Shown: one piece after another, positions 8,981 to 48,149 of the stretch
Position numbering within the stretch: position 1 is the stretch's first letter
How the letters are laid out: the number at the start of each line of letters is the position of its first letter
NCBI GenBank assembly: GCA_021821885.1
Contig: JAKARO010000010.1
Span: forward strand, 1 to 64,000
DNA from: Pseudomonadota bacterium
GTDB lineage: Bacteria > Pseudomonadota > Gammaproteobacteria > Acidithiobacillales > Acidithiobacillaceae
Direction of reading: 5' to 3'
Length of the DNA: 64,000 nt
Notes under the pieces: model-generated
The model's database searches: none
Seen by the model: the letters and a program-made list of their open reading frames with translations, nothing else
What the model was told of the DNA's origin: nothing
Made by a program: the position numbers and the translations under genes

Positions 8981-11900
8981 TTCCGTTCTGCCCTGCCGGC
9001 GGCAGCCAGCAGGGTTTCCGCCACGGTTACGGGAACGACACGGGAAACCCCCGGCTCAGGCATGGTTACCCCCACCAGCTGCTCGGCCACCTGCAGGGTC
9101 AGATGGCGGTGACTGACCAGCAGGAACTGGGTTCTCTGCGCCAGCTGGCGTAGCAGGGCGCAAAACCGGCCCACGTTGGCATCGTCCAGGGGGGCATCCA
9201 CCTCGTCCAGCACACAGAACGGAGCCGGGTTCAGCTGGAACAGGGCAAACACCAGGGCAATGGCGGCAAGCGCCTTTTCGCCTCCGGACAGCTGCTGGAG
9301 CGCCGTGTTCCGTTTTCCCGGCGGCTGGACCCGCAGAACCAGGCCGGCCTCCAGTGGGTCGTCACCGCTCGGCTGCAGCACCGCCTCCCCTCCGCCGAAC
9401 AGCACGGAAAAATGCTCCCGCAGGGAGCCATTGACCAGACGCAGGGTTTCCCGGAAACGGGTTGCCGTCTCGGTGTCCATGGACGCCATCGCATTTCCGA
9501 GGCTGGCAAGTGCCGATTCCACATCGTCCACCTGCGCCAGCAGACTGCCGCGGCGGTTTTCCAGCTCCTGCAGCTCTTCTTCCGCGGCAAGGTTGACATT
9601 GCCCAGGCGCTCTACCGCATTCTGTATTCGCTGCAGCTCCCGGTGGGGATCCTTCCCGTCCGGCAGGGGCCCGGGGTCACAGGGCAGCTGCCGGACGAGT
9701 TCCAGGGCCCGGGTCTCCCATTCCTGCCGCCTCGCTTCCAGCGTGGCCTGACGGAGCTGCGCGGACGCTTCCTCGTGCTCCAGCTGCCTGCGCTCCTGCT
9801 CACGCTGGCTGCGCAGTCCGTCTGCCTCCCGGATCCGGATCTGGTCCATATCCCACGCCTGCTGGAGACCACGCAGGTGTGTGCCGGCACGTTCCCGCCG
9901 CTCCCGCAGATCCGCACGCTGTTTCTCCAGGTCCGGCATCTGCAGATCCTGAAAATCAAGCGCCTGCCGGGCCTGGTGGAGACGCTCCAGGGTCTCTTCC
10001 CGGGCACGGGCCAGCTCTTCCAGCCGCTCCCGTGCCGCCTGGTCTTCGCTCCCGATCCGCTGCAGCTCCAGCGCCTGCCTCTGCTGCCGGTCCCGGAGCC
10101 GGGCCAGGCTTCCCCGGAGATCCCCAAGCCTTTTCTGGATTTGCTGATATGCGGCGCCGGCTTCACGTTCGGATTCCCGCAGGACATTTTCCTGGGCGGT
10201 GTCCCGCTTTTTGGCGGAATCCAGGTCCTGGCGCCGCTCTTCCAGCTGGGCAAGCTCGGTTTCTACCCGCTCCCGTTCCTGGCAGGCTTCCTGCAGTCTC
10301 CGGGTTTCCTCTTCTACCCGGCTGGACAGACGGGCGAGACTCTCCTTTTCCCGGCCAAGCCGCCGTTCGGCATCCCGGACTGACCGCTCCCGTTCCTGGC
10401 ACTGTTCCCCCAGCACCCGGACATGGCTTTCCTCGGCCTGGAGGCTTTTCTGCGCGCTCTCCGCCGCCACGGCTACCGCCGCAAGCTCGCCCGCCAGAAA
10501 TTCCAGTTCCTTCTGGCACTGTAGCAGGCTACCGGATTCCGCATCCGTTCCTGGCCGTTCCAGGGCCAGGGGATACACCCGCTCTCCGACCGGCGTAATC
10601 CAGGATTCCCCCGCACCCAGTTCCCCGGTCCGCTGCAGGGCTTCCTGCAGATCCTGTACGCAGCGCACACCCCAGAGCCAGTGGCTGAGGGGCTCCCAGA
10701 GGCCAGAACCGGCGGAAATCCGGTGTACCAGGGCATCGGCGGGCACGGCCTCTGGCTCCGGTTCCCTGCCACCCGGGAAAAGCCAGTACCCGCCGCCACC
10801 CTCCGCCGGGGCGGGGCGCTCATGGGTGGCCATCACGGCATGAAGACGGTCTCCGAGCGCCCGTTCCACCGCCCACTCCCAGCCAGGGACCACGGCCATA
10901 TTCCGGGACAGCCTTTCGCCTTCCCCGGAACTGCAGGACCGTTCCAGTCCCCGGCGCAGCCGTTCCAGGGCTTCGGAACGGGTCCGGAGTCCCTGATGCT
11001 GCTGGCGCAGGCCCTGGAACCGCTCACGGGATTGCTGCAGAATCTGCTGCCGTTCCTGAAACTGGCCCTGGAGGCCCTGCAGGGCCACCAGCTCCGCACC
11101 GGTCTGCTGCCGGAGCTGTTCTACCAGACCTTCCTGGATCCGCATCTCCGGAACGCTGGATCCGGTATCGGCCGCAAGACGCTGCCGCCGTTTCTCAAGA
11201 GCCTCGATACGGGGAATGATCTCATTCCACTGGGCATGGCGGACATCCGCCCCGCGACGCCACTCGTTCAGGCGCTGCTGGGCGTCCCGATGGCGGCTCT
11301 CCGATGCGGCCAGATCCTTCTCGGTCCGGTCACGTTCATGGCGCAGAACCGAGATTTCCCTCTCCACATTCTCCTGGTCCGCCTGCAGCCGGAGGCCCTG
11401 TTTCTGCCGCTCTTCCGTGAGCGACCGGCGGGCTTCCGCTTCCTGTTCCAGGCGGACACTTCTCCCGTGTTCCAGGTCCAGCTGCCCGGCAAGCCTTGTC
11501 CGCTCCGCCTGGGCATGCTGCCAGACCTGTTCCAGCCGGCTGTGCTCCGCCTGGAGGGCGTAAGCGGTTTCCTGGGCCAGACTTACGGCTTTCTGGTGTC
11601 CACCCAGCGCCTCCCGCAGACGGGAAACCTGGTCTTCCAGTCCGGAAACCGCCGACTGTACTTCCTGCAGCCTTTTGGCCCGTGTTTCGCGTTCTTCCTG
11701 TACAGCCCCATGTTCTGCATCCAGAAGCGCGATTTTCTGCCCCAGCCCCCACCACTGCCACTGGCGCTCTTCAAGGCGGAGAACCCGGAGTTTTCTGGCC
11801 GCGGCCGCCTGGTCCTGCAGCCGGGCAGACCGGGTTTCCATTTCTCCGTGAATGTCCTTCAGACGGGACAGATGTTCCCGGGTTTCGGTGATGCGCTGCA

Positions 11901-33507: not shown

Positions 33508-34389
33508 CTACCCGCCGCAGGAGTTCCCGGTTTCCATCGGCAGGATCCTGGCGCCAATATCCGCTGGCGGCGCATGGTATATGGCACTGGTGACCAGGAC
33601 GTCCACCCCGGTGGCCGCGTACTCGGCAACATTGTCCTCGCCAATCCCGCCTGCGGCAAACACCGTTATCCCGGGGGCCGCGCTGCGCAGGGCACCGGTC
33701 ATGTCGCGCAGCGAATCCGGAGAGAGCTTGTCGAACTGGATTCCGTCGACACCAGCCATGGCCAGCGCCAGCGCATCAGGCAGCGCGTCCCGTGAGCGCT
33801 CCACCTCCACCAGGATCTTGACGGACGGCAGGCTTCGGCGCAGGGCGGGGAGCCGTTCCAGGAAAACCGGCAGTCCGCCCAGAAGCTCAAGATGCTGCCG
33901 GAACACCAGCATGGTTTCCGACAGCCCAAGGCGATGGGGGAAAACACCTCCGGCAAGGGCCGCCATCACCGACAGCCGGCGCGTGCCAGGATAGTGCTTG
34001 CGGGTTCCGGCGACCACGATGCCCGGGCAGTGCGCACGGGCTTCCTTGACCAGGCGGCTGGCCCTCCCGGCAATACCGCTGGAATACTCCAGGACATTGG
34101 CCGCCACTCTCCAGACCCCATGCAGGGCCGCCGCACGGCCTTCCGCCATAAGGAGGATATCGCCTGCGGCCGCAGCATGTCCGGACGGGAGAAACTGGTG
34201 CACCTGTGCCCCCTGGTATTCCAGCAGCTGCACCGCAATTTCCGTCCCGGCCACAACCGTCGGCTGCCGGCTCCGGAACGTGATCGAACCAGGTCCGTCA
34301 CGGAGACCCAGGGCCTCCGTGGTCAAATCCAGATAGGGCAGATCCTCCTGGATCAGGGACGCGATTTCCTGGGGGGACAGACGCATCAT
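33508..34389 (-). CDS. modD: ModD, quinolinate-phosphoribosyltransferase-like protein
   Basis: A 293-aa homologue of nicotinate-nucleotide pyrophosphorylase. Motifs: EDLPYLDLTTEALGL, the GTRKHYPGTRRL phosphate/PRPP region, VEVERSRDALPDALALAMAGVDGIQFDKL and VFAAGGIGEDNVAEYAATGVDVLVTSA. The ModD branch, often linked to molybdate uptake or nif genes, is favoured over NadC by context and by the HRLGLSETMLVF segment. Its reaction is not established. The ATG at 34389 follows GGAGG; it ends the nifB-operon gene run. Confidence 0.8.
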   Translation of the reverse strand: MMRLSPQEIASLIQEDLPYLDLTTEALGLRDGPGSITFRSRQPTVVAGTEIAVQLLEYQGAQVHQFLPSGHAAAAGDILLMAEGRAAALHGVWRVAANVLEYSSGIAGRASRLVKEARAHCPGIVVAGTRKHYPGTRRLSVMAALAGGVFPHRLGLSETMLVFRQHLELLGGLPVFLERLPALRRSLPSVKILVEVERSRDALPDALALAMAGVDGIQFDKLSPDSLRDMTGALRSAAPGITVFAAGGIGEDNVAEYAATGVDVLVTSAIYHAPPADIGARILPMETGNSCGG

Positions 34390-34474: not shown

Positions 34475-34933
34475 TTACACCGCCGGGAGGAGCCGCCGGA
34501 ACCGCTGCAGGTCATAGCTGCCATCCCGGACCTTTTCGGCAATTTCACCCAGCGTCCGGGAATCCAGCATGCCCATCATGTCCCTTTTCATGGGCTTCCA
34601 GGCATGGTGGGCCGGGCAGGGTGTTTCATCCGCACATTTTGCCAGACCCAGCACACAGGCGTCCCCGTAGCCGGAACCCTCAATGCGGCGAACCACTTCC
34701 AGGAGCCGCAGGTCCCGGACACCGGGCGCGAGGAGAAAGCCACCCCCTTTTCCCTTCTGGGAGACCAGCAGGCCATCTGCAGCAAGCCCCTGGAGTATTT
34801 TCGACAGGTAGGGAGAAGGCACGTCCTCAAGGTAGAACGCGAGGTCGTGGGCCCGGACATACTCCTTTTCCGGCAGGGCTGCAATACGGACCATGGCCTG
34901 CAGGGCATAGGCACAGGTTCTGCTCCAGAGCAT
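34475..34933 (-). CDS. Rrf2-family Fe-S transcription regulator
   Basis: A 152-aa protein with an N-terminal winged helix (CAYALQAMVRIAAL, YLSKILQGLAADGLLVSQKGKGGGFLLA) and three C-terminal Cys (ACVLGLAKCADETPC) that match the 2Fe-2S ligand layout of IscR/NsrR-type Rrf2 proteins. It sits near the end of the nifB operon, 18 bp from the SIR2-like gene. It probably senses Fe-S status, oxygen or NO; targets are unknown. Confidence 0.85.
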   Translation of the reverse strand: MLWSRTCAYALQAMVRIAALPEKEYVRAHDLAFYLEDVPSPYLSKILQGLAADGLLVSQKGKGGGFLLAPGVRDLRLLEVVRRIEGSGYGDACVLGLAKCADETPCPAHHAWKPMKRDMMGMLDSRTLGEIAEKVRDGSYDLQRFRRLLPAV

Positions 34934-34950: not shown

Positions 34951-35784
34951 CTATCCGGCCTGGGCCACCGCCGGCACCCTGCCGTCAGGCAGGGAAGCCA
35001 CGGGCCAGAACAGCGGCTGGATATTCTGCTCGGCGAGAAAACGCTGTTCATTGCGGGTCAGCGGCTGGTCGAACAGCGCCCAATGCCGGTCCGAGGAACG
35101 TTTCATGATCTGCCGTGCAAAAGCCCGCTGGAGCTGGTCGTCGAAACGGCAGCCCAGAAAGAGGAAATGCCGGTCCCGCCGGATCAACTGCACGGACTGC
35201 GGGATCGGGGTCTGGATGTCAATTTCGGTCATGACCTCGACGAAATCGCTGTCCGATACAAGATAGTTGCTGGCCGGGCTCCGTGCCCCCCAGGGTTCAT
35301 AGAGGATCGTGTCCCAGCCGGCGGCACCGTCTTCCGCCACCTTCTCACCCGAAGCCGACCAGTACCCCGTCCAGTTTCCGTAATGCTCTCCCTGGCTCAG
35401 CCCCTGGATACGGCCCCAGGTCCTCCCCGCTCCGGCCAGTGCCATGGCCACACTGTCGTCGTACCAGAGATGCACGACCAGCGGAAGAGGCATTTCCGCC
35501 AGATACCGCAGGACCGGATGGACGGGCACGGGCCCGGAAAAGGCCTCGTCCATCATCTGCACCAGCGTCTTGCGATGCCGGAAGTTTTCAACATACTGCG
35601 CCGTTGCAGTCAGATTGCGCCGTATCTTGTGGGGTACCGTCACCCGGCTGCCAAGCACGTCCGCCAGTTCCGGAAAACTGGCCGGCAGGCTCCCTTCCGC
35701 CACGGGCAGCAGTCCGGCACCCAGATAGGGAATGATCCGGCCTGCCTGCAGACCCCCAAGAATTTCCTCAAGATCCCTGTCCAT
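34951..35784 (-). CDS. SIR2-like domain protein in nif operon
   Basis: A 277-aa protein starting MDRDLEEILGGLQAGRIIPYLGAGLL, which matches the NAD-binding GAG loop of SIR2-like domains found in NAD-hydrolysing and ADP-ribose-handling proteins. Further SIR2_2-like features are LPLVVHLWYDDSVAMAL and FLFLGCRFDDQLQRAFARQIM. It lacks the zinc-ribbon Cys pairs of true deacetylases. The ATG at 35784 lies 22 bp after the stop of the small upstream orf. The role in nitrogen fixation is not established. Confidence 0.75.
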   Translation of the reverse strand: MDRDLEEILGGLQAGRIIPYLGAGLLPVAEGSLPASFPELADVLGSRVTVPHKIRRNLTATAQYVENFRHRKTLVQMMDEAFSGPVPVHPVLRYLAEMPLPLVVHLWYDDSVAMALAGAGRTWGRIQGLSQGEHYGNWTGYWSASGEKVAEDGAAGWDTILYEPWGARSPASNYLVSDSDFVEVMTEIDIQTPIPQSVQLIRRDRHFLFLGCRFDDQLQRAFARQIMKRSSDRHWALFDQPLTRNEQRFLAEQNIQPLFWPVASLPDGRVPAVAQAG

Positions 35785-35806: not shown

Positions 35807-36031
35807 TCAGTCCGCCGGTGCCTGCAGGCTGGTGTGGATTTTTTCCAGGGCAGTGGTCTCCACATGGAAAACCCCGCGCCCACCGGACAGGGCCTGATAG
35901 GTTTTTTCCGGATAGCGGCTGAGGGCATTGAACCAGTCCTGCGCCGGCACGCCTGGCGGGCAGGCGCCAATCTCGCGCACGCTGCCATCGTTGGCGAAGC
36001 GGGTATGAATCACGGCCATCTTCGAGTCCAT
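35807..36031 (-). CDS. Small nif-operon protein, unknown function
   Basis: A 74-aa protein starting MDSKMAVIHTRFANDGSVREI, with no recognised motif. GGAGGG lies just upstream of the ATG. It is wedged between the 2Fe-2S ferredoxin (12 bp) and the SIR2-like gene, so it is co-transcribed. Confidence 0.65.
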   Translation of the reverse strand: MDSKMAVIHTRFANDGSVREIGACPPGVPAQDWFNALSRYPEKTYQALSGGRGVFHVETTALEKIHTSLQAPAD

Positions 36032-36043
36032 GCCAGTCCCTCC

Positions 36044-36349
36044 TCATAATCCCGATGCAAAACCGAGCAGCTCGACCACGACATTTTCCCCGCCAAGCAG
36101 TGCCTGGCAGGCCAGCCTGGACTTGCTGCCCACGCCTACAATGCTGTCCAGCCGCTCATTTTCCTGGCGCTGGATTCTGGAAAGACTTTTGCGTCCCTCC
36201 TGCACAAACACATGGCAGCTTTCACACTCGCCCTTCCCCTCACACTTCAGGACCATGGCTTCGCCGGCGGCCACAATGGCGGCGGCAAGGGTCGTACCAG
36301 CAGGTACCTCGATGCTTTTCCCGCTGGGGTGGATGGTAACTGTCGGCAT
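36044..36349 (-). CDS. 2Fe-2S ferredoxin (plant/adrenodoxin fold)
   Basis: A 101-aa protein with a ferredoxin N-terminus (TVTIHPSGKSIEVPAGTTLAAAI) and Cys ligands in CEGKGECESC and a distal SRLACQ, the C-X5-C-X2-C...C pattern of 2Fe-2S ferredoxins. It probably serves nitrogenase metal-centre assembly or electron supply. GGAGG precedes the ATG; the DegT-like gene ends 37 bp upstream. Confidence 0.88.
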   Translation of the reverse strand: MPTVTIHPSGKSIEVPAGTTLAAAIVAAGEAMVLKCEGKGECESCHVFVQEGRKSLSRIQRQENERLDSIVGVGSKSRLACQALLGGENVVVELLGFASGL

Positions 36350-36386: not shown

Positions 36387-37535
36387 TTACAGGTATATGC
36401 TGCTTCCAGCCCCGACATTGACCGAGGCATCCTTCAGCGCTTCCACAATGAAGGCGATTTCTTCCCGGGCGAGATGGGGATGGAAAGGCAGGACCAGAGT
36501 GCGATCGGCAACCCGGACAGCGGTGGGACAGTCTCCGCGGCCGCTTTCCCGATAGTGGAACTGGTTGTGCATGGGCACACAGTAGGCGGCAGCCTCGATG
36601 CCCTGGGTCCGCAGATCGTTCACAATCGCATCCCGGCTGCTCCGGCTGAACCGGGTGCCCAGATGGACCTCGTACACGAACCAGTGAACTTCCGTTGCGT
36701 CCGGTCCGTGATAGGGATCCTTGAGCCCCTCAAACGATTTCATGTACTCAAAATAGACGGATTCCACCGTGCGCCGGCGTTCGAGGATTCCGTCCAGCCG
36801 GCTGAGCTGGCAGCGGCCCAGTGCCGCCTGCAGGTCACTCATCTCGGCCTGCAGGGGAGGACGCGTTGCCGCCGCCACCGAATTCCGGGCGTCCAGGCCC
36901 CTGCTCCGGAACTGCCGCATGCGGCTGAACACCGCCGTGTCGTCCGTCACGAGCATGGCCCCTTCCCCGCACAGCAGTGGCGAGGGCTGGGCAAAGGCGA
37001 AAATCGCCACATCCCCAAAGCTCCCGACCCGTTTTCCATCGTACTCGGAACCAATGGCCTCAGTAGAATCTTCCAGCAGAATCAGGCTTCCGGCATCTGC
37101 GACCGCGCGCAGTTCGTCCCAGAACGCGGGATGGCCCTTGGTATTTCCAGCCAGAATTGCGCGGGTACGGGGCGTAACCCGGCTTTCCGCAATTTTGGGC
37201 GAAATGGTCCCGGAGTAGTAATCGATATCGGCAAAAACGGGGGCCACGCCATGCCAGCTCAGCGCGTGGCCAATCTGCCACCAGCTGTAGGGGGAAAGGA
37301 TGACCTCATCGCCAGCACCCAGTTCATAGGCCCGGAGACAGAGCATCAGGGCCGCCGTGGGGCTGGAGACGGCCAGTGCATGGCGGCGGCCGGCGTACCG
37401 GGCAAATTCTTCCTCAAAGGCTTCCACCTCTGCTCCGGCACCCAGTTGGGGCGAGCGCAGCACCGCTTCGACCGACGCCAGTTCCCTGGGAGAAATATCG
37501 GGATCGGAAAGAAAAATCTCGATTTCATCGTTCAT
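36387..37535 (-). CDS. DegT/DnrJ/EryC1-like protein lacking the PLP lysine
   Basis: A 382-aa fold-type I aminotransferase-like protein. Recognisable are the FEEEFARYAGRRHALAVSS N-terminal motif, GAGDEVILSPYSWW, LLEDSTEAIGSEYDGKRVGSFGD and the C-terminal LPFHPHLAREEI. At the site where family members carry the PLP-binding Lys (SF-PTK...GDGG-like), this protein reads AFAQPSPLLCGEGAM, so Ser replaces Lys. It may therefore not form a Schiff base. The ATG overlaps the stop of the preceding small orf (ATGA). Function unknown. Confidence 0.82.
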   Translation of the reverse strand: MNDEIEIFLSDPDISPRELASVEAVLRSPQLGAGAEVEAFEEEFARYAGRRHALAVSSPTAALMLCLRAYELGAGDEVILSPYSWWQIGHALSWHGVAPVFADIDYYSGTISPKIAESRVTPRTRAILAGNTKGHPAFWDELRAVADAGSLILLEDSTEAIGSEYDGKRVGSFGDVAIFAFAQPSPLLCGEGAMLVTDDTAVFSRMRQFRSRGLDARNSVAAATRPPLQAEMSDLQAALGRCQLSRLDGILERRRTVESVYFEYMKSFEGLKDPYHGPDATEVHWFVYEVHLGTRFSRSSRDAIVNDLRTQGIEAAAYCVPMHNQFHYRESGRGDCPTAVRVADRTLVLPFHPHLAREEIAFIVEALKDASVNVGAGSSIYL

Positions 37536-37804
37536 GGTGCTCTCCCGTGCAGTGCAAACAGGACTCCTGTGGCCGCCTCACGGTCGGAGGTAATCCCCCA
37601 GCAGTGTCCGCGCGTATCCAGCAGGTGCAGATCAAGGATGGAACCGGTGCGGCATGGACTCTCGACAACGTCGCTGGCAGGGCACTGGCTCAGCACCAGG
37701 CCAGGAAAGCGCGGACGCAGGGCCGGCAGCAGGGAACCCCCTTCCCGGCAGACGGTTTCCCCCATATCCAGGAGCTGGTCCAGATCTTCGTCGCTCAGTC
37801 CCAT
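37532..37804 (-). CDS. Small nif-associated protein (DUF6129-like)
   Basis: A 90-aa protein with LRPRFPGLVLSQCPASDV and LHLLDTRGHCWGITSDREAATG, features I associate with short nif-cluster proteins annotated as DUF6129; the family name is from memory. It lies between nifT (4 bp away) and the DegT-like gene (four-base overlap), so it is co-translated. Function unknown. Confidence 0.7.
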   Translation of the reverse strand: MGLSDEDLDQLLDMGETVCREGGSLLPALRPRFPGLVLSQCPASDVVESPCRTGSILDLHLLDTRGHCWGITSDREAATGVLFALHGRAP

Positions 37805-37808
37805 TTCC

Positions 37809-38018
37809 TCAGTCTCCCAGCCGCCTGGCCTCTACCGTGATGGGCAGGCGGGTTTCCGGGGGCAGATCCGGCAGTTCCAGGCGCCACCCATTGGCGAGTG
37901 TCACCACCCCTCCCCACAGATCCGGGTTTTCACTCGCCGTGATGGGTTCTTCGAGGTCTTTTTTGGGCACATAGGCGCTCAGTACACCGCTCGCATCTTT
38001 ACGGATCATGACTTTCAT
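37809..38018 (-). CDS. nifT: NifT/FixU
   Basis: A 69-aa protein with the whole NifT signature: MKVMIRKDASG, YVPKKDLEEPI, LWGGVVTLANGWRLELP and LPITVEARRL. It is a small nif protein of unclear function. GAGGTGAG precedes the ATG; nifS ends 10 bp upstream. Confidence 0.93.
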   Translation of the reverse strand: MKVMIRKDASGVLSAYVPKKDLEEPITASENPDLWGGVVTLANGWRLELPDLPPETRLPITVEARRLGD

Positions 38019-38027
38019 GGTCTCACC

Positions 38028-39224
38028 TCAGGACAGGCAGGAAACGGACGGATTCGCGGTGGCCATGGACGGCTGGGGCAGGTGCATCATGTCCAGCAGC
38101 ACTCCGCCCAGTATTGGCAGGAGATAGTCCACGTCCGGCAGCTGGTTCAGCCGGCTGAACGAGAAGCGGAGGGAGGACAGGACGGCCGTTCGGGAAAATC
38201 CCATCGCTGTCAGCACATGCGATGGCTGGTTGCTGCCCGCTGCGCAGGCGGCCCCGAGGGCCGCCACAATTCCTTCCTGTTCCAGCCGGAAGAGAAGCTC
38301 CTCGCCATCCAGGGCCAGAAACCCGATATTGCTGGTGTTGGGCAGCCTTTCCGCACCCTGGCCATGCACCCGGGCACAGGGCATGATGGCCTGCAGGCCC
38401 CTCTCAAAATGGTCCCGAAGCTGCGCGAGATGGCGGAGTTCGCCCGGCAGGTCGGAAAACTGCTCGACGGCGGTCCCGAAACCGACAATAGCGGCCACAT
38501 TTTCGGTGCCTCCCCGGCGACCCCGCTCCTGGTGCCCATGGAAGAGTGGCGGGAGCTCAATCCCCTTGCGGACACAGAGGGCGCCCACGCCTTTGGGGCC
38601 ATGGAGCTTGTGGCCCGTACAGGACAGAAAATCCACGTCTGCGGCGGCAAAACTCACATGGGTCCGCCCAACCGCCTGGGTCGCGTCACAATGGAAATAG
38701 ACGCCGGCCCCACGGGCAATTTCCGCGGCTTCCCGGACAGGAAAGATGACCCCGGTTTCGTTGTTGGCCCACATCAGGGAAACCAGCGCGGTGTCTTCCC
38801 TAAGTGCCTGCCGCAGGGTATCCAGATCCAGGCGCCCTTCCGTGTCCACCGGCAGATAGGTTACTTCCACGCCCAGCCGCTCCAGATGCTGGCAGAGGAG
38901 CAGGACCGAGGGATGCTCCACCGCACTGGTCACGATATGCCGCTTTCCCCGGGACAGGGACAGGGCCGCCAGGATTGCCGTATGGTTGCTCTCGGTGGCG
39001 CCACTGGTAAAGACTACTTCGGCCGGCCTCGCGCCCAGGAACCCGGAGACGGAAATTCTCGCCTTTTCGAGCGCATTTCTGACCTGTCTTCCCAGCATCG
39101 AACTGCTGGACGGATTGGCAAAGTGCTGCTCCATTTTCAGGAAGGGCATCATGGAATCCAGCACCTGGGGGGCCATTGCCGTTGTGGAATTATTGTCCAG
39201 ATAGATTGTCATAGGCATTTTCAT
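38028..39224 (-). CDS. nifS: Cysteine desulfurase NifS (nifB operon copy)
   Basis: A 398-aa class I cysteine desulfurase: IYLDNNSTTAMAP N-terminus, SGATESNHTAI, PLP site with Lys in SCTGHKLHGPKG, GGTENVAAIVG, and the catalytic Cys in GAACAAGSNQPSHVL. It supplies sulfur for cluster assembly. The ATG overlaps the nifZ stop (ATGA). A second, quite different NifS lies at 58968-60176 next to nifU, so this copy may serve NifB/NifZ-linked steps (inference). The C-terminal Pro/Ser-rich tail is atypical. Confidence 0.92.
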   Translation of the reverse strand: MKMPMTIYLDNNSTTAMAPQVLDSMMPFLKMEQHFANPSSSSMLGRQVRNALEKARISVSGFLGARPAEVVFTSGATESNHTAILAALSLSRGKRHIVTSAVEHPSVLLLCQHLERLGVEVTYLPVDTEGRLDLDTLRQALREDTALVSLMWANNETGVIFPVREAAEIARGAGVYFHCDATQAVGRTHVSFAAADVDFLSCTGHKLHGPKGVGALCVRKGIELPPLFHGHQERGRRGGTENVAAIVGFGTAVEQFSDLPGELRHLAQLRDHFERGLQAIMPCARVHGQGAERLPNTSNIGFLALDGEELLFRLEQEGIVAALGAACAAGSNQPSHVLTAMGFSRTAVLSSLRFSFSRLNQLPDVDYLLPILGGVLLDMMHLPQPSMATANPSVSCLS

Positions 39225-39475
39225 AGCTGCATTTCTCCCATGGGGAAAATCTCGTCTTCCAGACAGCCTATCACCTTGCCATTACCGAATTCCACGAGAT
39301 AGACGGGAACATTTATTTCTTCATGATGCCCGACGCGCACAATTTCACCAACACTTTGTGCCGGCACGAGAAGCGCATTTTCCTGTTCTCCCGGGAATGT
39401 GCCATCGTTCACAATATCTTCTTTTACCACCACACGGAGTCCCCAGTCATAACGGGCGTTTCGTCTTTCAATCAT
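39221..39475 (-). CDS. nifZ: NifZ family protein
   Basis: An 84-aa NifZ-domain protein: DWGLRVVVKEDIVNDGTFPGEQ, LLVPAQSVGEIVRVGHHEEI, VYLVEFGNGKVIGCLEDEIFP. NifZ acts in maturation of the MoFe protein P-cluster. AGGGGGAAA precedes the ATG. A second NifZ-like protein is encoded immediately upstream. Confidence 0.9.
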   Translation of the reverse strand: MIERRNARYDWGLRVVVKEDIVNDGTFPGEQENALLVPAQSVGEIVRVGHHEEINVPVYLVEFGNGKVIGCLEDEIFPMGEMQL

Positions 39476-39493: not shown

Positions 39494-39772
39494 CTAATGG
39501 TCATCCACCATCTCCAGTTCACGTCCTTTCATCCCGACAAGATGGCCACGTTCATAAAAATCGACACCATAAATATAAAACTGCTGCAAAAAAGTTCCGA
39601 TGCTGGTAATAAAGCCGACATCTCCTTTTTTGACAATAATTTCCCCAATTTCAGCGCCCCTGAATGTTCCGTCATTCCGGACATGCTTCCGTGAACGCAC
39701 CCTGTCGCCGTAGCTAAAAACCGGTGCTGCGTCGAGTTCAACCGTCTCGCTGTCCCTGCTCATTCCCGCCAT
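39494..39772 (-). CDS. nifZ: NifZ-like protein (second copy)
   Basis: A 92-aa protein with GDRVRSRKHVRNDGTFRGAEIGEIIVKKG and GVDFYERGHLVGMKGRELEMV, the same fold signature as the neighbouring NifZ. The start at 39772 is chosen for its AGGGGG site and its position 13 bp after the LRV gene; 39763 is possible. The tandem copies may act together. Confidence 0.85.
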   Translation of the reverse strand: MAGMSRDSETVELDAAPVFSYGDRVRSRKHVRNDGTFRGAEIGEIIVKKGDVGFITSIGTFLQQFYIYGVDFYERGHLVGMKGRELEMVDDH

Positions 39773-39785
39773 TTTCCGGTACCCC

Positions 39786-40559
39786 CTATGAGCCCTGCTT
39801 CTTCTGCCCCGGGCCCGCCTGCGCCAGCCGCTGTCTGGCACAGGCACGGACCTCCTCATCCTCATCCTCCAGAAATCCCGGAACGCTTTTGAGGCTGGTC
39901 CGTGCAGCCACCGCATAGCGGACCCGCCAGTCCGGATCGACCGAAAGGGAATTGAGGAGAGACGCCGGAATTCTTTCCGCCGCAGCCAGCCGGACCATGG
40001 GATCCGCATCCTGCATCATGGAAAACAGCGCCTCTACACCAATCCGCTGGGCCACAATGCGCCGGACTACAGCGTCCGGATCGTTCCGCATCAGCAGCAG
40101 CAGGCCCGCGGGCAGGCGCCTCGCCACATGGGCCCGCACGGAGTAGTCGTCATCGGCCATCATCACCGCCAGGTTATGCTCATCCAGACGCATGGCCACC
40201 TGGATCCGGACTTCCCGGTGAGGATCATGCACCAGCCGCATCAGATAGCGCTGGGGCAGCCGCTGCGCTACCGCCCAGCGCACGGTTTCATCTTCGTCCT
40301 CAACCAGTGCCGGAAGACTGAACAGGTCTGCATACCGGGCCGCGCAGGCACGCACCTCAAAATACGGATGGTCCAGATAGCCATGGGCCATCTGCCGGTT
40401 CCAGCGGAAGAAACGGTCCACCCGCAGCGCATAGCGGTCGTGGAGGCAGGCGCGCAGGGGCTGGCACCGGACCGTATCCATCCACCCCTCCGGGCAGCCC
40501 TCGCAGGAAACGGGAAGCCCCTGCCAGTCGATGGCCTCATCCGGGTCATTCGTATTCAT
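39786..40559 (-). CDS. 4Fe-4S leucine-rich-repeat-variant (LRV) protein
   Basis: A 257-aa protein. The N-terminal region has a Cys cluster (LPVSCEGCPEGWMDTVRCQPLRACL) like the 4Fe-4S domain of the Azotobacter LRV protein. It is followed by about nine 24-residue helical LRV repeats (e.g. ALVEDEDETVRWAVAQRLP, RLVHDPHREVRIQVAMRL). It is likely a scaffold in nitrogenase assembly. AAGAAGGA precedes the ATG at 40559, which overlaps the TPR gene's end. Confidence 0.85.
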   Translation of the reverse strand: MNTNDPDEAIDWQGLPVSCEGCPEGWMDTVRCQPLRACLHDRYALRVDRFFRWNRQMAHGYLDHPYFEVRACAARYADLFSLPALVEDEDETVRWAVAQRLPQRYLMRLVHDPHREVRIQVAMRLDEHNLAVMMADDDYSVRAHVARRLPAGLLLLMRNDPDAVVRRIVAQRIGVEALFSMMQDADPMVRLAAAERIPASLLNSLSVDPDWRVRYAVAARTSLKSVPGFLEDEDEEVRACARQRLAQAGPGQKKQGS

Positions 40560-41810: not shown

Positions 41811-43382
41811 CTAGGCAGCGGTATAGGCCCCCTGACGGATCTGGGCATCCCCCCGCTGGCCGTGGGTCACGGTTCCGTTGCGGACCAGGTCGAGATATTC
41901 CCGGAAATAGGCAATGACCGACTGTTCAATATACTCATAGGCAAAGCGGTCTACCGGATCGATACCTGCCGCTTCCAGGGCCCCCCTGGGACAGCCACCA
42001 ATCTTGGCGACAAAGACCGCCGTACAGTCGTTGATCGCACGGATCACGACCGTTTCCAGGGCTTCCTCGTCACCAAACCCTCCCTGGCAATACAGGTCCA
42101 CACGGCGGTGGCCCACGAACTTCGCGCCAGAAGAACTGGCCTCATAAATCTGGAACTCTGAAGCGTGGCCGAAATGCTCATTGATCCGTCCACTGCCCTT
42201 GGTGGCCACGGCGATGAGGATTTTTACGTCGGAATACTCTCCTCCGGCGAGGGTTTCCATTTCCGCCTTCCTGGCTGCGGCGGTGGCCTCCCGCTCCTGC
42301 TCGACCAGGGCCTGGTACGACTTGCGGGTTTCCATGTCGTACTGCACGTCCATGGCCATGACCGCCTCGGTGGTAAATTCGGCGGAGCGGTCTTCTCCAA
42401 GCAGGCCCACCGCGTCCGCCCGGCACTGCCGGCAGTGCCGCATCATGTTCATTTCACCTTCGCAGCTGTCCTGCAGGGCCTTCAGTTCCTGGGCCGAGGG
42501 TCCACGCTGGCCGTTCAGGCCGAAAACTGTCCCATGTTCGGGCGCGGAAATCAGCGGCATGATATTGTGGAGGAACGCGCCACGGCTCTTGACGGCCCGG
42601 TTGACCTCCACAAGATGCCCGTCGTTGATGCCGGGGATCATGACGGAATTTACCTTGCACAGGATCCCGCGCTCGGTCAGCATTTCGAGGCCCTGCAACT
42701 GCCGTTCGGTCAGGATCCGGGCAGCCTCGCGCCCCTTGTAGCGCTTGTTCCGGAAATAGATCCAGGGATAGATTTCGGCCCCCACATCCGGGTCTACCAT
42801 ATTGATGGTAATGGTGACGTGGTCCACATTGTAGGAAGCGATCGTGTCCACATGGTCAGGAAGGGCCAGCCCGTTGGTGGAAAGACAGAGCTTGATATCC
42901 GGCGCGGTCTTTGAAATCAGCTCGAAGGTTTTGAAGGTCTTTTCCGGATTGGCCAGCGGATCGCCAGGCCCCGCAATGCCCAGAACCGTCATTTGCGGTA
43001 TGGTGGAAGCAACGGCGAGCACTTTCTTGGCGGCCTGCTCCGGCGTCAGCTTCTCACTGACGACCCCGGGACGGCTTTCGTTTGCACAGTCATATTTCCG
43101 GTTGCAGTAGTTGCACTGGATATTGCAGGCCGGCGCCACCGCCACGTGCATGCGCGCATAGTGGTGATGCGCCTCCTCACTGTAGCAGGGATGGTTTTTG
43201 ACCTTTTCCCAGATTTCCGGAGCGAGGTCACCCTGTCCGGCACTGCTGCCACAACTGGCCTTTCCGGAACCTCCCTGGGTACCACAGCCCTGGTGTTCCG
43301 CCTTCTGCTGCATGATATCTTCCAGGTTCACCCCATTTTTCGGGGTGGAAATGCTGGAGAGAGAGATGACCTGATGTTCCAT
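41811..43382 (-). CDS. nifB: NifB, nitrogenase FeMo-cofactor precursor synthase
   Basis: A 523-aa radical SAM enzyme: [24 protein letters not shown] (CxxxCxxC cluster), [18 protein letters not shown], and a C-terminal NifX-like domain ([27 protein letters not shown]). It makes NifB-co (8Fe-9S-C) from Fe-S clusters. GGAGG precedes the ATG. It is the first gene of a long leftward operon and has a sigma-54 promoter and NifA site upstream. Confidence 0.98.
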
Positions 43383-43483: not shown

Positions 43484-43499
43484 TGCAATCCGCATGCCA
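43484..43499 (-). promoter_or_regulatory. Sigma-54 promoter of nifB
   Basis: Minus strand reads TGGCATGCGGATTGCA: GG and GC are separated by ten bases and the TTGCA -12 box is intact. It lies about 100 bp upstream of nifB. Confidence 0.85.
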
Positions 43500-43592: not shown

Positions 43593-43608
43593 TGTCGCGA
43601 ACCGGACA
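43593..43608. promoter_or_regulatory. NifA upstream activator site (nifB)
   Basis: TGTCGCGAACCGGACA fits TGT-N10-ACA. It is about 95 bp upstream of the nifB -24 box on the minus strand. Confidence 0.8.

Positions 43609-46443: not shown

Positions 46444-48149
<1,706 letters not shown>

Follow-up and report, generated by a model that had tools for sequence, protein, structure and literature searches.

The window analysed here is a stretch of 64,000 nucleotides from an Acidithiobacillaceae genome (Pseudomonadota bacterium, assembly GCA_021821885.1, contig JAKARO010000010.1, positions 1 to 64,000), and it carries a nif operon led by nifB. Within this operon lies a gene for a protein of the DegT/DnrJ/EryC1/StrS fold family. 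An initial annotation, made from the sequence, described a serine at the place of the lysine that normally forms a Schiff base with pyridoxal 5'-phosphate (PLP) but stated no strand; the gene is on the minus strand. Three features of it carry the argument:

36387..37535, minus strand: DegT-fold protein of 382 residues, the subject of this analysis, with Ser185 at the place of the PLP lysine (open reading frame and alignments)
36981..36983, minus strand: codon of Ser185, the Schiff-base lysine column (alignments; position computed from the reading-frame start at 37535)
36390..36434, minus strand: clade-specific C-terminal tail, residues 368-382, KDASVNVGAGSSIYL (clade/outgroup alignment and entropy windows)

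Family membership, in the sense of fold and homology, is clear. The Pfam model DegT_DnrJ_EryC1 covers residues 13-367 (E 6.8e-86), and the fold is well kept by sequence, tree and structure model, the last being a monomer prediction. The annotation's view that the fold is otherwise well preserved is upheld by the profile match, the model and a structure comparison; no conclusion is drawn from families missing from the VIA-align structure list. All seven NCBIfam models listed fall far under their cut-offs (PseC, 207 bits against 423.5). The closest named relatives are from Acidithiobacillus, at no more than 82% identity, and public records name the family DegT/DnrJ/EryC1/StrS aminotransferase.

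Loss of the Schiff-base lysine and of two pocket residues

The motif AFAQPSPLLCGEG is present, and Ser185 occupies the Schiff-base lysine column in a MAFFT alignment with DegT homologues. A profile alignment to solved structures places Ser185 in the column of the lysine of GDP-perosamine synthase (3bn1) and of the engineered alanine of the K186A mutant 3dr4. Both alignments confirm the assignment of serine to the lysine position.

Relatives were gathered in overlapping samples. The class sample gave a DegT match at ≥50% identity in 8 of 274 genomes, the window's own genome included; in the phylum sample 6 of 398 exceeded 560 bits, with one Lys-bearing paralogue at 270; in the order of G136, 19 of 151 exceeded 550 bits, with one paralogue at 256. 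Three further order samples gave 2 of 160, 2 of 150 and 2 of 147 (the last plus one paralogue), and one further sample 1 of 8. Long frames were found in 7 of 18 genomes of the family of G207, one of them cut by a contig end, together with a remnant in G207 itself. Named genome contigs contributed 13 loci and plasmids four records at 48-56% identity. Removal of duplicates left 55 distinct clade sequences, a set that omits the window's own protein (L001), L122 (the same frame as L120), the short frame of a broken Bradyrhizobium copy and the G207 remnant, which has no residue at the site.

None of these 55 sequences has lysine at the site (S in 31, G in 19, A in 2, L in 2 and Q in 1), whereas all 26 outgroup sequences do. 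The annotation had asked whether lysine is always lost in nif-linked homologues, and had named another conserved lysine in the site as a finding that would overturn it. The loss extends throughout the 55, and in none of them does a lysine occur within 10 residues on either side; the Schiff-base lysine of the FSFxxxK loop is missing from the window protein and from the clade alike. Two lysines invariant in the clade, K272 close to where the C-terminal domain begins and K368 in the last helix, were considered as substitutes and rejected, both lying outside the lysine loop. The 55 distinct sequences also exclude sequencing error, chance or a one-off change, given that the outgroup keeps its lysine and that the PLP lysine and catalytic cysteine are both intact in the operon's NifS-type protein. 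Independent lineages are nevertheless far fewer than 55, since a single metagenome bin supplied four sequences (L035, L037, L041 and L044) and many others are closely related Acidithiobacillus or Methylococcales. Three Lys-bearing paralogues (G610, G756 and G1029, 255-270 bits), tried as clade members, fell outside the clade in the trees and show none of the operon neighbours within about 4 kb. The observation made on a single protein holds for a whole family.

The Lys-less clade has one origin. In trees of 72 rows (46 Lys-less) and 78 rows (52 Lys-less), every Lys-less row lies on one side of a single branch with support of 100 in the Shimodaira-Hasegawa-like approximate likelihood-ratio test. 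The stem is long, at 1.1-1.2 changes per column, and the nearest Lys-bearing rows, L010 and L011 (34-39% identity), are placed with weak support, 75. Parsimony on the first tree requires 10 changes at the lysine column, the lysine change included, so the column kept changing once the lysine had gone.

The rest of the pocket was compared between 45 clade rows and 24 outgroup rows. The FSF serine (position 180) and the GYNYR-type asparagine of the partner chain (position 229) presumably hold the PLP phosphate, as in ArnB and GDP-perosamine synthase, and the clade keeps neither. At the serine column the 55 clade sequences have D in 40, A in 13, G in 1 and E in 1 (Asp 32, Ala 11, Gly 1 and Glu 1 in the 45-row set; S 22 and A 2 in the outgroup), and an aspartate would be poorly suited to a phosphate site. 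The asparagine column reads Q in 21, R in 20, A in 7, G in 5 and P in 1, one fragment having no residue there, against N in 18 and K in 6 of the 24 outgroup rows; the glycine that precedes it in all 24 is proline in 41 of 45 clade rows. D156, which we take to be the aspartate paired with the pyridine nitrogen of PLP, is present in all 45 clade and all 24 outgroup rows.

Could the clade still use PLP, or pyridoxamine 5'-phosphate (PMP), without a covalent link? The dehydrases ColD and E1 have the same fold, with histidine in place of the lysine, and carry out PMP chemistry; both appear in the same family list (E1, 3bcx; ColD, 3gr9). Retention of D156 would suit such Lys-independent chemistry, as would five Lys-to-Ala DegT mutants in the Protein Data Bank (3dr4, 4oca, 3nys, 4ztc and 5u21), whose entry titles name PLP, an aldimine or a sugar ligand. 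ColD and E1 share with the clade a natural loss of the lysine (E1 entry 3bb8 is titled as an H220K mutant), but they differ in their histidine and PMP chemistry. None of the 55 clade sequences has histidine at the site, where S, G, A, L or Q offers no conserved base, and the presumed phosphate ligands are gone, the serine having mostly become aspartate. We regard non-covalent cofactor use as improbable.

The nif operon and its conservation

From nifB (43382-41811) downwards the operon encodes a 4Fe-4S protein, an IscA-type protein, a TPR protein, an LRV 4Fe-4S protein, two NifZ-domain proteins, NifS2, NifT, a DUF6129-like protein, the DegT protein, a 2Fe-2S ferredoxin, a 74-residue reading frame and a SIR2-like protein. 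The listed features, besides the DegT gene, are:

43593..43608, no strand assigned: palindromic TGT-N10-ACA site of the NifA upstream activator type, lying some 95 bp upstream of the sigma-54 type site
43485..43499, minus strand: sigma-54 type -24/-12 site TGGCATGCGGATTGC, one mismatch, upstream of nifB
41811..43382, minus strand: nifB, first gene of the operon
39786..40559, minus strand: LRV protein with a 4Fe-4S domain, start uncertain
39494..40009, minus strand: NifZ-domain protein (reading frame as listed; domain at residues 96-166)
39221..39475, minus strand: NifZ-domain protein
38028..39224, minus strand: divergent NifS-type cysteine desulfurase (NifS2), lysine and cysteine retained
37809..38018, minus strand: NifT/FixU
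37532..37804, minus strand: DUF6129-like protein (20.8 bits against a Pfam cut-off of 23.6), ATGA overlap with the DegT start
36044..36349, minus strand: 2Fe-2S ferredoxin, fdx_isc-like, under that model's cut-off
35807..36031, minus strand: 74-residue reading frame between ferredoxin and SIR2, no Pfam match
34951..35784, minus strand: SIR2-like protein in which Trp107 takes the place of the TTNYD asparagine

The true start of the first NifZ frame is probably further downstream, since its domain occupies only residues 96-166. NifS2 reaches 460 bits, short of the 530.75 set as the NifS equivalog cut-off, and may be a second, specialised desulfurase; its PLP lysine and catalytic cysteine are kept, as they are in all 20 NifS-type matches from 25 loci. 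In Methylococcus sp. EFPC2 a hypothetical protein stands at the place of the 74-residue frame. Beyond the operon follow an Rrf2-type regulator (34475-34933, minus strand) and a ModD-like phosphoribosyltransferase (33508-34389, minus strand), with possible iron-sulfur and molybdenum links. On the plus strand, two TGT-N10-ACA sites and an exact TGGCAC-N5-TTGC site at 47031-47170 lie inside the listed nifH frame (46923-48149), which suggests that nifH really starts downstream of these sites.

The DegT gene is coupled to the upstream DUF6129-like gene by a 4-base ATGA overlap, and all 55 clade sequences adjoin at least one other protein of the operon; the tight coupling to nif neighbours that the annotation had pointed to holds on both counts. 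Each of the 40 larger loci has two or more further operon proteins, and tblastn detected SIR2 in 39, NifZ1 in 38, NifB, ferredoxin and LRV in 36 each, NifZ2 and a NifS-type protein in 35 each and DUF6129 in 29. The NifS figure includes some housekeeping-type copies, and the DUF6129 figure is too low because matches starting within 250 bases were merged, a later search having found more. Some misses reflect contig or fetched-region ends and others a true absence of the gene; one plasmid is represented twice, as L054 and L097. SIR2 occurs at each of the seven loci from the family of G207, and the four short contigs not among the 40 carry DUF6129 and more. No operon neighbour was found at any of the 26 Lys-bearing outgroup loci (23 plus 3; stretches of about 4 kb, two also of about 19 kb). 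A Methylococcus sp. EFPC2 plasmid has nearly the same gene order as the window, as does a Paraburkholderia aromaticivorans plasmid with SIR2 and ferredoxin swapped. NifB was detected in 26 of the 274 gammaproteobacterial genomes, and the clade in 8 of these 26 and none of the other 248 (Fisher 2e-9, the genomes not being independent). Conserved linkage across lineages places the gene in the nif operon, and in the genomes sampled the clade, a probable pseudoenzyme branch within the DegT family, occurs only in nif clusters.

Some plasmid copies are irregular. In Bradyrhizobium sp. BWA-3-5 (L057, about 9800-10920) the DegT copy, unannotated and with leucine at the lysine site, does not form a single open frame; it lies among many nif genes. 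The nif region of a Paraburkholderia sprentiae WSM5005 plasmid (L056) looks partly degraded: its class V aminotransferase coding sequence spans just 420 bp, tblastn detects a SIR2 gene that the annotation lacks, and nifA matches in two pieces with no listed gene.

A conserved tail and a second altered enzyme

The C-terminal tail reaches past the usual end of the family, the outgroup having gaps in 23 of 24 rows at columns 379-381. Its consensus is KD[AST][SAT]xNxGAGx[AS]IY, with K368, D369, N373, G375, A376, G377, I380 and Y381 present in all 45 clade rows. Of 369 windows scored over 26 non-redundant rows (<90% identity), residues 368-382 contain the two of lowest mean entropy, 368-381 and 369-382, tied at 0.37 bits, compared with 1.16 bits overall, 1.01 in the lysine loop and 1.39 in the asparagine loop. 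The tail, unmentioned in the annotation, is the best-conserved part of the clade; the next most conserved windows begin near 284-291 and 151-153, in the protein body.

The most divergent members point the same way. The divergent proteins of G207's family (the six full-length ones at 42-47% identity) have glycine at the lysine site and a shortened asparagine loop, with the tail intact. G207 itself keeps a remnant, a 105-residue frame on the minus strand (L109:7948-8262), whose body is gone; it retains the ATGA overlap to the upstream DUF6129 gene and ends in the tail, KDASIHAGAGSAIYL. Matches to DUF6129, SIR2, NifS2, NifB and NifHDK surround it, and seven genomes of the family keep long copies. 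This reduced form was seen in G207 alone and may have arisen by a recent deletion.

A decaying sugar aminotransferase, carried along in the operon, would account for this remnant and for the broken Bradyrhizobium copy. Such decay is very unlikely, however: dN/dS is 0.04-0.11 where computable, and the clade is under purifying selection; it is spread over three proteobacterial classes; the tail is nearly invariant; and the translational overlap is kept in both the window and the remnant.

The SIR2-like protein at the end of the operon is also altered. It resembles the NADase domains of ThsA, KomC and DSR2 (best Foldseek E 2.1e-12, TM 0.67, rmsd 4.8). Sequence matches to solved structures were at chance level (E 0.18-1.1) and were set aside; an alignment to KomC served only to place the TTNYD motif, the fold assignment itself resting on Pfam and Foldseek. 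A tblastn search of phages matched 75 records, the best 5 of the 75 at 27-33% identity. TTNYD reads LWYDD in the window protein. At the asparagine column, compared in 28 loci, tryptophan stands in the window protein and in all 25 relatives from DegT-type clusters (among them L093, irregular at the column, and L109, which carries the DegT remnant), and asparagine in all three of the other cluster type. We take this asparagine to have a catalytic role.

Strong SIR2 matches (246-636 bits) occur in the eight DegT-clade genomes and G207, and weak ones (42-64 bits) in 11 more, which amounts to 20 of the 26 NifB-positive and none of the 248 other gammaproteobacterial genomes. These proteins differ from the DegT clade in fold and are broader in nif clusters (20 against 8 of the 26). 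Proteins under the same label are Rcc03262, a nif-cluster SIR2 family protein of Rhodobacter capsulatus listed in Table 1 of PMC6925177 as missing from the nifA1-nifA2 double mutant, Pseudomonas stutzeri PST_1325, a nif-cluster SIR2-like protein in PMC11332353, and Zymomonas mobilis ZMO1821, a SIR2-like hypothetical protein in PMC8594446. They are, like the DegT protein, uncharacterised accessory genes of nif clusters.

Proposed role of the DegT clade in nif

What, then, does a DegT protein without its lysine do in a nif operon? The reading we lean towards, with moderate confidence, is a nif-specific pseudo-aminotransferase, most likely a non-catalytic adaptor, probably a dimer, that would dock an operon partner through conserved surfaces, above all the tail. 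Judged from the sequences, aminotransferase function has probably been lost, and a non-aminotransferase role, as the annotation proposed, is the most economical reading with the lysine and two further pocket columns gone. An adaptor or scaffold role in nif is plausible. A DegT-type sugar aminotransferase would have joined the nifB-led operon and, in one lineage, lost its Schiff-base lysine and two further pocket residues with the fold kept. The resulting adaptor, encoded with NifB, two NifZ proteins, NifS2, NifT, ferredoxin and the SIR2-like protein, may dock by its tail onto one operon partner during maturation of nitrogenase or its cofactor; the SIR2-like protein, the ferredoxin, or NifZ, NifS2 or NifB are candidate partners.

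Several points weigh against this adaptor. Model confidence falls along the tail (pLDDT 74, then 45). A full DegT copy is missing from 18 of the 26 nifB-positive gammaproteobacterial genomes sampled, and one of these 18, G207, has only its remnant with nifHDK, nifB and SIR2 detected, so the gene is not universally needed. Neither promoter motif is enriched in the window (sigma-54 type, 93 against 81 expected; NifA-type, 8 against 6.7), and only position speaks for the sites upstream of nifB. Among the titles listed from the open-licence PMC literature none was on this gene, and no interaction or phenotype data were found. The deposited Lys-to-Ala mutants mean that loss of the lysine is in itself no proof of lost cofactor binding, which qualifies the annotation's claim. 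Finally, erosion of the pocket is incomplete, and a ligand of some kind may bind there, as D156 and E159 are invariant in the 45 clade rows and N131, W139, Y106 and S163 are fixed there as residues unusual in the outgroup (H 16 and D 8 at the N131 column; W in 2 of 24 at the W139 column; S in 2 of 24 at the S163 column).

These fixed residues, which would face the pocket, and the conserved windows of the body are what favours the principal rival, in which the ancestral pocket has been re-purposed for a small ligand such as a nucleotide sugar, homocitrate or another organic acid, or some other metabolite, and the protein serves nif metabolism as a sensor, as a carrier or as an enzyme independent of PLP. 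The body windows rank after the tail, however, the pocket loops are less conserved than the tail, the lysine and asparagine loops are further altered in the most divergent members, and the data indicate no ligand. We think this ligand-binding role rather unlikely. A bolder form of the adaptor hypothesis, offered only tentatively, would place the function in the tail, with the body a dimeric carrier of two tails; together with the SIR2-like protein it would make a pair of dead enzymes, a new type of nitrogenase-maturation adaptor derived from metabolic enzymes put to another use, with the G207 remnant as its minimal form.

Known members of PF01041 such as GDP-perosamine synthase, ArnB and PseC differ from the clade, which lacks the lysine, the FSF serine and the GYNYR-type asparagine and has the extra conserved tail and the nif operon context. 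Another known case for comparison is LCB1/SPTLC1 of serine palmitoyltransferase, a non-catalytic fold type I subunit that lacks the lysine and acts as a structural partner. The difference is that no catalytic DegT partner is seen in the window operon, NifS2 belonging to another fold I family.

No paper in the open-licence PMC literature combined DegT with nifB and nifZ, or DegT with nitrogenase and a nif cluster. The passages covered of an Azoarcus Tn-Seq paper (PMC9769520) name no such gene, and in those of a Paraburkholderia phymatum NifA table (PMC8305402) the DegT gene is not identifiable. On fosmid DX-1A-14 from acid mine drainage, as tabulated in PMC3912193, a rhodanese-domain gene of 1629 bp follows nifS and a small reading frame, roughly at the DegT place of other clusters.

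With aminotransferase function probably lost, the aminotransferase label in public records would mislead metabolic models of diazotrophs. For efforts to establish nitrogenase in new hosts, where the full set of required genes is still being worked out, the present analysis names a discrete candidate nif accessory factor, with the nif SIR2-like protein as a possible partner and the tail as a handle.
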